Assembly: GCA_016214005.1 (NCBI GenBank)
Contig: JACRPK010000015.1
Location: 1 to 40,633, forward strand
From: Candidatus Wolfebacteria bacterium
GTDB taxonomy: Bacteria; Patescibacteriota; Minisyncoccia; UBA6257; UBA9933
DNA length: 40,633 nt
Reading direction: 5' to 3'
Shown one piece after another: positions 9,061-38,675 of this stretch (positions within the stretch are counted from its first letter, which is position 1; each line of letters opens with the position of its first letter). A program made the translations under genes and the position numbers. Under the pieces are notes generated by a model. It had not been told where the DNA came from and made no database searches. It saw nothing but the letters and a program-made list of their open reading frames with translations.

Positions 9061-9092
9061 ATCCCTCACCCTTTTAATAAGGGGTGAGGGAT
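9061..9092. repeat. Hairpin ATCCCTCACCC-N10-GGGTGAGGGAT
   Basis: 11-bp perfect inverted repeat; the arm equals the outer part of the 29.5 kb GIY-YIG cassette termini. Confidence 0.85.
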
Positions 9093-22663: not shown

Positions 22664-22734
22664 ATATTAAATCACATTCCAGCAAAACAAATCATCTTGA
22701 AGAACATCCCGCAGGGATAACAAACTTATCTAAA

Positions 22735-22834
22735 TAAGCGAGAAAAAAGGATGTTTTTGAAACCTTAACGAAAGCGCAGCCGAGTTAAAGACGAGGCGTG
22801 AGCGGGTTGAAAAAACATCCTTTTTTCTCGCTTA
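22735..22834. repeat. 24-bp perfect inverted repeat with structured 52-nt loop (candidate structured RNA or strong terminator)
   Basis: TAAGCGAGAAAAAAGGATGTTTTT (22735-22758) / AAAAACATCCTTTTTTCTCGCTTA (22811-22834); GA/GA internal loop then AACC/GGTT; GAAA tetraloop candidate in the loop. Confidence 0.85.
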
Positions 22835-22839
22835 TGCCA

Positions 22840-29000: not shown

Positions 29001-29504
29001 CTAATAATTAACCTGTTTCGCGACTTTTTTTTCTCCGGTTGTTTTTTTCAAAACCGCATAACCTTCTTTCATTTTTTCTCCGACTATCGGTGAAACTACT
29101 TTTTCTCTTTGAGAAATAGGTTGTTTGCTGATCATCAAATCCTGCATTAATTTTTTCATACTCGGCATTTGAAAAAGATTTTTTCTTTTTATTTCCGGAG
29201 TTTCGGGAAGCCCAGCCGCTTTCTCCGCCTCCCTTTTCCAGATATATAATTTCGGTTTCCATAAAAAAGAAAAAGCGTAGAAAATAATTTTCGGCAGCGG
29301 TTGGCCGTTATATTTATAAAAAGCCAAAGCTATCCCAAACGTGAAAGAAATCGCGCTTATCAAAAACCAAAGCCATGTTTTAAAAACAAAAAATGCTAAA
29401 AAACTTGCGCCGCCAGCCGCCGCCAAATATAAAAATTGCCTTAAAGTCAAAGGCCCGACAAGTTTGCTTTCAACTTCAATAAATTGGGGAACCTGAAATT
29501 GCAT
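29001..29504 (-). CDS. PrgI-family protein
   Basis: QFQVPQFIEVESKLVGPLTLRQFLYLAAAGGASFLAFFVF; upstream of VirB4-like genes. Confidence 0.9.
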   Translation of the reverse strand: MQFQVPQFIEVESKLVGPLTLRQFLYLAAAGGASFLAFFVFKTWLWFLISAISFTFGIALAFYKYNGQPLPKIIFYAFSFLWKPKLYIWKREAEKAAGLPETPEIKRKNLFQMPSMKKLMQDLMISKQPISQREKVVSPIVGEKMKEGYAVLKKTTGEKKVAKQVNY

Positions 29505-29796
29505 CCCTCACCCTTCAAGCATTAAAGAATCGAAAAGGCGGCTCTTCAAAGAAGAGAAGCCCTTAGCAAATTGCTTTAATCTCTTTTCTCTAATCAATGC
29601 GTCCCTTTTTGATTTGTATGATTCAAAATATATTAATTCCATTGGTCTTAAATTTTTTGTTGATTGCACCATTCCCTTATTATGTTTTTCCATTCTTTCT
29701 TTTAGATCCTCGGCAAAGCCTATATAAAAGCTATTATCTAATTTTGATCTTAATAAATAAACATGAAAAAACATAGATGCTTGAAGGGTGAGGGAT
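29503..29796. mobile_element. Putative GIY-YIG cassette bounded by 20-bp perfect inverted repeats
   Basis: ATCCCTCACCCTTCAAGCAT (29503-29522) and ATGCTTGAAGGGTGAGGGAT (29777-29796) flank a single ORF. Confidence 0.7.
29508..29774 (-). CDS. GIY-YIG nuclease-family protein
   Basis: VYLLRSKLDNSFYIGFAEDLKERMEKHNKGMVQSTKNLRPMELIYFESYKSKRDALIREKRLKQF. Confidence 0.95.
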   Translation of the reverse strand: MFFHVYLLRSKLDNSFYIGFAEDLKERMEKHNKGMVQSTKNLRPMELIYFESYKSKRDALIREKRLKQFAKGFSSLKSRLFDSLMLEG

Positions 29797-31142
29797 TATT
29801 TATTAAAAAGCGATTTGATAAAGCCTTTTATGTCTATTTTCCTTTTTGTTTTTTCAATCTGCCCTACTTCTTCAATCTGTTTTGATTCTTCAATTGGATT
29901 TGTTTCTTCAGTTACCTTTGTTTCTTCTTTTACCGCCCCTGCATTTTCTATCTTTTCTCTGTTGCTATCACTAGTGATAGCAACAGATTCTTTAATTTCT
30001 TCTTTTTTTATCGGCGCAATTTCCGGCATAATCGCTGATTCAGCCATTGGCGCAACGGCAATTTCTTGCTTATTAACAACTTCTTTATTTTTATTTTTAA
30101 ATAAATTTTTAACAAATCCAAAAATATTTTTCTTAGCTGGCGCAATAAGTTTTTCTTCCGGCTTATTTTCTTCAACTTTAAAATTAACAACTTTTGCTTT
30201 AGCTTTTTCTTCTTCAGATAATTGCTTTTCTTTGACAACCTCAGCAATCGGCTCTGATTTTTTTTCTTCAACAACAGCGGGTTTAATTTGCTGCTCAACA
30301 GGCGAAAGACTAACTGGCATAGGCTCGCCGGCTTGGGTAATCGGAGTTCTCAAAACATTTTCATAATGGACCTCTCTTACTTTTTCTTGTTCGGCAATTA
30401 ATGCAGGCTGAGATTCTTTTATTTCAACTTGTTTAGGAATTTCCATTTGAGCCGCCACAGAAACAACATCCTTTTTTTCAATGCCCTCAAAAGGCTTTTT
30501 GCCGAGCAAATGACCAAATAAATCTCCCAATGATTTTTTCTCGCCGAAAATCGGCTTAACAGCCTCTTCTTCTTTGTGAAGCACAACCGGCCCCTCGGCA
30601 ACAGAAACTGGCGCAGGCGCAACTTGAGGAACTTCTTCTATTCCAGCTTTTGGCAAAATTATTTTTTCTCCTTCTTCGGTGGTGATAATTTTCAGCGGTT
30701 CAGCGGATGAAGGCTTTGGTCTGGTGATTTTAATTTCTTGCTTAATAATATCTGAAACAATCGGCTTACCAGCTTCAATACCAACTTCCAAATTTTCTTC
30801 AATTTCTTCAGAGGGCCAAGCCAAAGCAAAAGCTTTTTCTATTTCACTTTTAATAAGACTAAAAATTTTTCTATCCATTTCATCAACTATCAAACTGACA
30901 ATTTCTGAATTTATGCCTGTTTCATTTCTAATTTCTTTTGCCAAATCATCCTGATGAGTAAGGCCCATAATCACGTCTCCGGCTAAAATTGAAATTTTGC
31001 GGATTTTTTCTTTTGATAAATGCTGGGCTTCGCAAATACCCCATAAAATATCGGCATTGCGTTCGGAAAAAATCGCTTCGCGCAAAATCATTGGCAAATC
31101 ATCCCATCTTTTTAAAACTTGCTGCTTAGTAATAGTCAACAT
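29796..31142 (-). CDS. Hypothetical T4SS-locus protein with long low-complexity charged tail
   Basis: Globular N-terminus (MLTITKQQVLKRWDDLPMILREAIFSE...), then E/K/P-rich linker. Confidence 0.65.
   Translation of the reverse strand: MLTITKQQVLKRWDDLPMILREAIFSERNADILWGICEAQHLSKEKIRKISILAGDVIMGLTHQDDLAKEIRNETGINSEIVSLIVDEMDRKIFSLIKSEIEKAFALAWPSEEIEENLEVGIEAGKPIVSDIIKQEIKITRPKPSSAEPLKIITTEEGEKIILPKAGIEEVPQVAPAPVSVAEGPVVLHKEEEAVKPIFGEKKSLGDLFGHLLGKKPFEGIEKKDVVSVAAQMEIPKQVEIKESQPALIAEQEKVREVHYENVLRTPITQAGEPMPVSLSPVEQQIKPAVVEEKKSEPIAEVVKEKQLSEEEKAKAKVVNFKVEENKPEEKLIAPAKKNIFGFVKNLFKNKNKEVVNKQEIAVAPMAESAIMPEIAPIKKEEIKESVAITSDSNREKIENAGAVKEETKVTEETNPIEESKQIEEVGQIEKTKRKIDIKGFIKSLFNK
29958..29987. repeat. 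30-bp perfect palindrome inside coding sequence
   Basis: TCTGTTGCTATCACTAGTGATAGCAACAGA is self-reverse-complementary; encodes SVAITSDSN on the minus strand. Confidence 0.9.
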
Positions 31143-36934: not shown

Positions 36935-37890
36935 AACAATATTTCTGAAATTTTTTTAATTTGCCCAATTCCCAAATTTTGCGGCCGATCTTGCGAATTT
37001 ATGCCGATTTTTTCTAATTTTTCAATAATTTCTTCTTTCTTTTTACCAGAAATTCCTGATGATAAATTATTCAATATCGTTTTTCTCGGCTGTTTAAAAA
37101 GAATTTTAAGTAATTTATAATAATTTTCGTCTCCTATACTTTCTCTTGTTCTCTCTCTTGTTCTCTCTCTTGTTTTCTCTCCTATTCTCTCTCTTATCTT
37201 GCTACAACTTGCGGTAGCAGCCATTATTTTTCTTCTGCCTATTTTATTTATTTTATTATTATCATTTTTATTTTTATTTTTATTTTTATTGTTATTAAAA
37301 TTCTTGCTACAACTTGCGGTAGCAAAAGGTTCTAATTTTATTATCGCGCTTTCCACTTTCGGCGGCGGTAAAAAATCTTTTCGCGAAACATAGCTGATAA
37401 TTTCCGGTTTTGCCCAAAACTGGACGCTGGCTGCTAATAAATTCATTTCCGGAGGCTTGGCGCAAACACGCTCTGCCACTTCTCTTTGAATAAGCAAAAC
37501 TATTTTTGACGGCTTATTTTTCAACTCTCCCAAAATCCTAAATAAATATCCGGTAATATAATACGGAATATTGCCAACAAGTTTGTAGTTTATAGTTTGT
37601 AGTTTGTAGTTTTGAATTATTTGAGGTAAGACTTTCAACGCATCACCTTCAATAATTTCAACCCCGCTAGAAATCCGATTTCTTAAATCTTGCGCCAGGC
37701 GCGAATCTTTTTCAATGGCGATTATTTTGCAATTTAATTCTTTGTATTTTTCAAAAAGCGGGATTGTTAAAGCTCCCTTGCCCGGTCCGATTTCAATTAT
37801 AAAATCTCCCTTTTCAAGATCTATGGCCTCGACAATTTTTTGAAGCTTTTGCTTATTTTTTAAAAAATGCTGTCCTAAATAATTCCCCAT
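36931..37890 (-). CDS. ksgA: 16S rRNA (adenine1518-N6/adenine1519-N6)-dimethyltransferase with repeat-derived insertion
   Basis: MGNYLGQHFLKNKQKLQKIVEAIDLEKGDFIIEIGPGKGALTIPLFEK, VGNIPYYITGYLFRIL, FLPPPKVESAIIKLEP, KQPRKTILNNL. Confidence 0.95.
   Translation of the reverse strand: MGNYLGQHFLKNKQKLQKIVEAIDLEKGDFIIEIGPGKGALTIPLFEKYKELNCKIIAIEKDSRLAQDLRNRISSGVEIIEGDALKVLPQIIQNYKLQTINYKLVGNIPYYITGYLFRILGELKNKPSKIVLLIQREVAERVCAKPPEMNLLAASVQFWAKPEIISYVSRKDFLPPPKVESAIIKLEPFATASCSKNFNNNKNKNKNKNDNNKINKIGRRKIMAATASCSKIRERIGEKTRERTRERTRESIGDENYYKLLKILFKQPRKTILNNLSSGISGKKKEEIIEKLEKIGINSQDRPQNLGIGQIKKISEILF
37138..37197. repeat. About 12-bp tandem repeat (TTGTTCTCTCTC) within ksgA
   Basis: Successive TTGTTCTCTCTC / TTGTTTTCTCTC / CTATTCTCTCTC units; encodes RERTRERTRESIG. 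Confidence 0.8.
37198..37220. repeat. TTGCTAC-palindrome copy in frame in ksgA
   Basis: CTTGCTACAACTTGCGGTAGCAG; encodes ATASCSK. Confidence 0.9.
37303..37325. repeat. TTGCTAC-palindrome second copy in frame in ksgA
   Basis: CTTGCTACAACTTGCGGTAGCAA; encodes ATASCSK. Confidence 0.9.
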
Positions 37891-37965
37891 TTTATTTTTA
37901 TCCCGTTTCTTCTTTTTTCTTTTTTATTTCTTATTTTCTCTATTCTTTTATTTTTATCCGCAATT

Positions 37966-37989
37966 CTTGCTACAACTTGCGGTAGCAAG
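37966..37989. repeat. TTGCTAC-palindrome copy
   Basis: CTTGCTACAACTTGCGGTAGCAAG. Confidence 0.9.
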
Positions 37990-38075
37990 ATAGATAATTG
38001 AAAATAACAATATATTATTGTAATTTTTACTTTCCTATTTATCAATAAATAATAAAATAACAATAAAAAATTATC

Positions 38076-38525
38076 TTATAAATTATTCAAAAAATTCCAT
38101 CGTCCCTTGCCTTTTATCGACGAAATACGTTTATCCATCCACAAAGATAAAGAAATTATCATTTTCCATGCCGAATCAGACAAATATTCAAATTTAATAT
38201 TATTATTTTTAATTTTCTTGAATTTATTTAAAGGATCTCTCGCTTGATAATTTATTTTCCCTAAAACAGCTTTTTTAATGGCGCTGATTGTTGAAGGTGA
38301 AATCCATAAATAATCTCCTATTTCTCTATATTTTTTGCCTTTGCTGATGAAATAAACAGCCAGCAATCTTTTTATTATAAATTGTTTTTCTTTTTTACTT
38401 ATTACAATCTCTAAATTTTCTTTTAATTCCTTGGCAGATTTAATTTTTAAAATATCTTCTAAAAAATTAACCCAAATAAACTCTTCCCACTCTTTTCTTG
38501 ATTTAAATTCATCTAAATTTTTCAT
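38076..38525 (-). CDS. TrpR/YerC-like helix-turn-helix protein
   Basis: KRLLAVYFISKGKKYREIGDYLWISPSTISAIKKAVL resembles the TrpR/YerC HTH. Confidence 0.65.
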   Translation of the reverse strand: MKNLDEFKSRKEWEEFIWVNFLEDILKIKSAKELKENLEIVISKKEKQFIIKRLLAVYFISKGKKYREIGDYLWISPSTISAIKKAVLGKINYQARDPLNKFKKIKNNNIKFEYLSDSAWKMIISLSLWMDKRISSIKGKGRWNFLNNL

Positions 38526-38575
38526 AATTTTATTTATAGTTTAATAAATTTTTAATTTAAAATATCATAAATTTT

Positions 38576-38598
38576 TTGCTACCGCAAGTTATAGCAAG
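38576..38598. repeat. TTGCTAC-palindrome copy, opposite orientation
   Basis: TTGCTACCGCAAGTTATAGCAAG. Confidence 0.9.
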
Positions 38599-38675
38599 AG
38601 AAATTAAACAAAAATATTGCAAAATAAAATTATCTGCCAAACTCGCCCACTGTCATAGCTAACAAATAAATTTAT

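Follow-up and report, generated by a model that had tools for sequence, protein, structure and literature searches.

DNA transposons fall into classes according to the chemistry of their enzymes, namely DDE, HUH, tyrosine, serine and Cas1. REP/RAYT (TnpA-REP) systems consist of a small nuclease gene flanked by palindromes, together with dispersed gene-less palindromes of the same sequence. Rickettsia palindromic elements are short palindromes whose insertion into genes is tolerated in reduced genomes, and we know of no enzyme that they encode. Among GIY-YIG nucleases, Slx1 is a larger, partner-dependent repair enzyme.

Insertions that encode GIY-YIG proteins have been reported from the rRNA genes of CPR bacteria (PMC11270868, J Bacteriol 2024). 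According to that report, they are not introns and their GIY-YIG proteins seemingly lie outside spread by homing; its main text, searched by terms, contains neither inverted repeat nor palindrome. The units described below include some of the same kind, two in 16S rRNA genes (L160 and L234) and one in a 23S rRNA gene (L217), and differ from the insertions of that report in not being confined to rRNA genes, since they also lie in the structured-RNA genes for tRNA and RNase P RNA.

The locus studied here belongs to an apparently undescribed family of mobile elements of about 290 bp in Patescibacteria, whose sole gene encodes a GIY-YIG protein of 80–90 residues and which is accompanied by shorter gene-less copies. 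No description of TIR-bounded GIY-YIG units, of their ORF-less derivatives or of start-codon targeting was found among the open-licence papers that were searched. The relevant features of the window (the whole 40,633-nucleotide stretch of DNA that was analysed) are as follows.

29504–29795, minus strand: complete GIY-YIG unit bounded by inverted repeats, TCCC..GGGA, 292 bp.
29503–29522, no strand: inverted repeat on the 3' side of the GIY-YIG gene, in which lie the stop of that gene, a G-rich end resembling a ribosome-binding site and the first base of the prgI ATG; the same core occurs at start codons in other genomes.
29777–29796, no strand: the other inverted repeat, 5' of the GIY-YIG gene and directly adjacent to the stop codon (TAA) of the upstream gene.
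29508–29774, minus strand: gene for an 88-aa single-domain GIY-YIG nuclease (Pfam PF01541, alignment, AlphaFold model and fold matches).
29001–29504, minus strand: prgI, whose start codon is the insertion point (Pfam PF12666; relatives without the unit).
29796–31142, minus strand: upstream ORF of 448 aa, without Pfam hit, ending with its stop codon at the border of the unit.
9062–9091, no strand: bare hairpin of 30 bp, TCCCTCACCCTTTTAATAAGGGGTGAGGGA, sharing the repeat core and located at TAA/TGAATT.

The left repeat reads ATCCCTCACCCTTCAAGCAT, and its exact reverse complement lies at the other end of the unit. When 40 windows were simulated with the dinucleotide composition of the real one, exact inverted repeats within 300 bp reached a maximum of 12–16 nt per window, against 20 here. 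Between the repeats there is only one ORF of at least 60 aa, the GIY-YIG gene, whose stop falls inside the left repeat (..MLEG*); base 29504 of this repeat is the A of the prgI ATG, and the TAA stop of the upstream ORF (29796–29798) touches the right repeat. A sequence-only reading of this DNA had proposed a GIY-YIG cassette between perfect 20-bp repeats, with the ORF stop in a left repeat that reaches the prgI ATG and a right repeat that touches the upstream stop, and the cassette is real in all these points. The same reading had drawn the unit as 294 bp (29503–29796); the repeats are indeed perfect, but copies share the terminal T and A almost without exception, and the boundaries are therefore better written as 29504–29795. 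The flanks of this unit carry no direct repeat beyond AT. Elsewhere in the window, an unrelated exact inverted repeat of 25 nt around a 52-nt loop (22734–22835) is longer than that of the unit, and three CTTGCTACAACTTGCGGTAGCA copies plus one inverted relative (37194–38602) represent another short palindromic repeat family.

The 88-aa protein has GIY-YIG (PF01541, E 8.8e-15) as its sole Pfam hit. Alignment identifies Y6, G19, R27, H31 and E63 as conserved residues, Y6, R27 and E63 being invariant in six homologues, and the protein qualifies for the superfamily by having a GIY-YIG domain in which the catalytic Tyr, Arg and Glu are all present. For its AlphaFold model (pLDDT 91.8), the nearest folds found by Foldseek were Slx1, a UPF0213 protein and I-TevI, with a TM of 0.66 by query length and an rmsd of 2.1 for the Slx1 match 6seh_C. 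The Slx1-like fold of this predicted structure points to branched or hairpin DNA as a possible substrate. The catalytic fold and motifs are shared with I-TevI and with free-standing GIY-YIG homing endonucleases; in contrast to them, the protein is a single domain with no separate DNA-binding module, and its gene is bounded by TIRs and has ORF-less relatives at other sites.

Pattern searches with the 11-base core CCCTCACCCTT revealed ten units in the genome to which the window belongs, the GIY-YIG unit of the window included. All ten are inverted pairs, one of them with a single mismatch in the second arm, and they comprise one GIY-YIG unit, two ORF-less 149-bp units, three bare hairpins and four tRNA-holding units. 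The full repeat, with at most three mismatches, is paired at two further places in this genome, both of them the 149-bp ORF-less units, which occupy stop/start junctions between infC and rpmI on contig 14 and before a DksA-like-looking gene on contig 21. The core of the three bare hairpins is 26–28 bp long, and one of them is the hairpin at 9062–9091, a minimal cargo-less copy. The remaining four units, of about 105–109 bp, each contain a tRNA gene and themselves interrupt a second tRNA gene, an arrangement that also occurs in a relative.

C3:24795–24901, C4:22997–23103, C4:67082–67186 and C17:9966–10074: tRNA-in-tRNA units in the genome of the window, G000 (loci L011, L015, L017 and L024).
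C11:41188–41293: tRNA-in-tRNA unit in the relative G078 (locus L110).

In this arrangement, a CCCTCACCC-bounded unit with an intact tRNA (ARAGORN) splits a tRNA that is often of related type (e.g., Pro in Pro). Degenerate cases lie at C12:11852 and C18:31384, and in the interrupted tRNAs of L017, L024 and L031 a second palindrome, CCTGCCTGCCGGCAGGCAGG, is found in the arms of the same tRNA relics.

The genomes compared here are mostly metagenome assemblies. Among 120 relatives, the pattern search found the core to be patchy and missing from 21 family members, while a reversed control pattern gave almost no matches. Paired units were present in G022 and G056 (about five each), in G078 (two pairs and three GIY-YIG ends at contig breaks), in G112 and in G092; the rest had none or unpaired matches. 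Two ORF-less copies in G022 (L103 and L105) are nearly identical and have different flanks. In the same way, two GIY-YIG copies in G078 (L115 and L118) have unrelated flanks and differ at 10 of 216 coding bases, the differences being 7 synonymous (39 sites) and 3 nonsynonymous (177 sites). With a dN/dS of about 0.1, the ORF is, judging by this comparison, under purifying selection between the two copies. The inner part of the repeat varies between units yet stays complementary, and most ORF-less units match GIY units from their own genome only in the outer 11–12 bases. In G056, ORF-less units at L099, L100 and L102 lie directly before pilin-like reading frames, where translation of the repeat end would give KGEG immediately ahead of the pilin glycine.

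When 84,980 species were scanned for TCCCTCACCC..GGGTGAGGGA at a spacing of 255–285, 30 hits were obtained. A GIY-YIG reading frame, in some cases broken, is present in every one of the seven hits that combine an inverted repeat of at least 17 with a G+C below 0.41; their sources are Parcubacteria, Liptonbacteria, Berkelbacteria, other MAGs and one MAG labelled Nanoarchaeota, which may be misbinned. Many other hits were unrelated high-G+C matches or other palindromes, such as the CTCTCCC types. A phylum-wide pattern search used a gap range that left out the window unit and carries no weight as negative evidence. In a viral collection, neither of the TIR spacing patterns tried occurs, and a viral origin of the unit was rejected on this ground.

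An HMM built from six of these proteins detected GIY-YIG genes in 131 of 192 Patescibacteria genomes. Inverted repeats (score at least 11) lie just outside the ORF at 44 of the 113 loci with flanks, compared with 0.7% for mismatched flanks taken as the null. This survey takes in loci chosen for their repeats or genomes; in the unselected subset, inverted repeats bound 29 of 87 related genes, against a null of about 0.7%. The arms differ between loci, and many have CCCNCACC in common. When the two largest TIR classes were placed on the GIY protein tree, which rests on 87 columns and has few well-supported forks, CCCNCAC required 9 changes versus 18.7 after shuffling and GTAGNGAA 1 change versus 5.9, no shuffle among 500 being as low in either case. 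On this tree, repeat type tracks the nuclease clade.

Inverted repeats are not needed for all related GIY-YIG genes, since 49 of the 113 have none and adjoin tRNAs. Where a tRNA lies directly downstream, an inverted repeat occurs in only 4 of 35 cases, and 21 of the 35 show upstream of the ORF a direct repeat (score at least 11, up to 64 nt) that mostly copies the 5' part of the tRNA. At L223, L252, L258, L277, L282 and others, an 11–64 nt copy of part of the downstream tRNA precedes the ORF. These tRNA-linked insertions with partial tRNA duplication may represent a sister strategy.

The prgI gene lacks the unit in 28 readable relatives. A distant genome (L146) has its own GIY-YIG unit exactly at the prgI ATG, with a different inner repeat; its PrgI is 38% and its GIY-YIG protein 57% identical to those of the window. 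The infC and rpmI genes overlap or are closely spaced in many relatives, and at the same exact point between them G000, G014 and G027 carry ORF-less units of three repeat families; no GIY-YIG match was found in the G027 genome. In G214, a single RNase P RNA gene (L214) has two inserts that share the TIR CCCCGCACCTGAAAATG, a GIY-YIG unit and an ORF-less one of 128 bp, and they sit in different helices.

Such repeated occupation of the same sites (prgI twice, infC–rpmI three times, RNase P RNA twice) is what recommends the reading of the unit as a free-standing homing endonuclease gene, which would cut the empty allele and be copied by homologous repair, while the inverted repeats would only preserve the function of the interrupted RNA or mRNA. 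GIY-YIG proteins are classic homing enzymes, and the tRNA-linked relatives do duplicate the 5' part of the tRNA. This reading is nevertheless unlikely, as copies of one element lie at unrelated sites within a genome, ORF-less and hairpin-only copies have spread as well, and TIR type tracks the enzyme; PMC11270868 also places the CPR rRNA insertions outside homing. A homing endonuclease gene lies in its own recognition site and spreads only to homologous empty sites, which the near-identical copies at unrelated sites of one genome contradict. A homing endonuclease of a group I or II intron was rejected too, an Rfam scan of the window having returned only tRNAs, with no intron family or other RNA element at the unit. 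Homing via homologous repair may still contribute at hot spots.

It is less plausible still, and indeed improbable, that the palindromes are moved by another enzyme, either of the host or a Y1 or DDE transposase, with the GIY-YIG gene as a passenger. The existence of bare hairpins and ORF-less units, and of a unit in G027 without a GIY-YIG match, would fit such an arrangement, whereas a mere passenger would not be expected from a GIY-YIG gene that is the sole gene found in units of 280–300 bp across many genomes, is under selection and belongs to clades with which TIR type clusters.

In the repeat family of the window (35 units), 10 units are immediately preceded by a stop codon and immediately followed by TG, compared with 0.5% of random positions, and 15 lie at A/TG, compared with about 2.4%. 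The last A of the repeat completes the ATG of prgI, of rpmI and of genes resembling ssb, ribosomal protein L13 and pilC. Across all repeat families, 16 of the 44 GIY-YIG genes bounded by inverted repeats end at a co-directional start codon (null 4.6%), compared with 2 of 44 for the other side. The proposal that the unit was inserted at the prgI start codon was thus right and understated, because start codons are a preferred landing site of the whole class. A possible ribosome-binding role of the repeat end, also proposed from the sequence alone, fits the finding that in those 10 units the repeat end, which in the window reads GAAGGGTGAGGGATG, abuts the TG after a stop; the G-rich end GAAGGGTGAGGG resembles a ribosome-binding site and is a candidate for one.

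Direct repeats of at least 5 bp flank 14 of the 44 units (null 4.4%), and those of at least 6 bp flank 9 (1.1%); several are ATGA, ATGAA or TATG, i.e., a duplicated start codon. They are enriched yet variable in length (1–10 bp), and a criterion of constant length is not met. At most units with the TIR of the window, target duplication beyond AT is absent; a constant duplication of AT or of 5 bp was rejected, as it fits some sites and not most of this family. An immobile regulatory hairpin (a terminator, an RNase III site or a translational coupling device) kept by vertical descent, which the operon-junction position and the ribosome-binding-site-like G-rich end might suggest, can be practically dismissed given the 28 readable relatives with prgI and no unit, the patchy distribution across genomes, the near-identical copies at unrelated loci, the flanking direct repeats and the occurrence within rRNA and RNase P RNA genes.

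The best explanation, to which a probability of about 0.7 is assigned in the absence of biochemistry, is a minimal transposable element with the TIRs as its ends and the 88-aa GIY-YIG nuclease as its enzyme. Sequence comparison makes the mobility of the unit well supported, through copies at nonhomologous sites, presence and absence in relatives, and flanking direct repeats at a subset. That the GIY-YIG protein performs the movement is inferred, and for movement itself the presence/absence pattern and the repeated copies are indirect evidence. The sequence-only reading had inferred a palindrome-bounded, nuclease-encoding mobile element, and the multiple copies, presence/absence, target duplications in a subset and ORF-less relatives bear this out; neither of the two outcomes that it had named as refuting, a GIY-YIG gene without inverted repeats at all orthologous loci of distant relatives or a lack of other repeat-bounded copies in related genomes, was observed, as prgI is free of the unit in the 28 readable relatives and many other such copies exist. 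Its analogy with REP/TnpA-REP survives for the anatomy of a nuclease with dispersed palindromes, the bare hairpins and ORF-less units matching the gene-less palindromes of that system, and fails for the enzyme, which is GIY-YIG and not Y1/HUH; unlike REP/RAYT, the units also land on start codons and in RNA genes. With MITEs and TIR insertion sequences they share TIRs, autonomous(-like) and nonautonomous copies and a patchy distribution, and so satisfy the criterion of TIRs and copies. They differ in that a DDE transposase is absent, GIY-YIG being the only ORF, that the whole unit measures about 290 bp, and that the duplications are short and inconsistent. In contrast to Rickettsia palindromic elements, an enzyme gene lies inside the same repeats.

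In the proposed mechanism, the nuclease would act on its own TIR ends and on the target, recognizing the core CCCNCACC/GGTGNGGG, perhaps in the form of an extruded hairpin or cruciform. Nicking is inferred at the outer T and A, the joining chemistry being unexplained, and insertion would occur at stop/start junctions such as TAATG or ATGA. ORF-less copies would be nonautonomous derivatives moved in trans by the same nuclease. Insertions at start sites are proposed to be tolerated for two reasons. The G-rich end would bring along both a sequence resembling a ribosome-binding site and the initial base of the start codon, and duplicated or flanking bases would preserve the upstream stop.

On balance, the units probably constitute a new enzymatic class of DNA transposon, in which TIR units are mobilized by a stand-alone GIY-YIG protein of 80–90 residues and target translation-start junctions and structured-RNA genes, their ends serving as portable ribosome-binding sites that make insertion between overlapping genes harmless. 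If this is true, a transposon class driven by GIY-YIG with so small a protein would be new, and a self-contained element of less than 300 bp would be a candidate genetic tool for lineages with few. It would also offer possible answers to three questions: how non-intron GIY-YIG insertions spread in CPR rRNA genes, why genes of this kind abound in such reduced genomes, and how insertions between overlapping genes can be tolerated in a compact genome.
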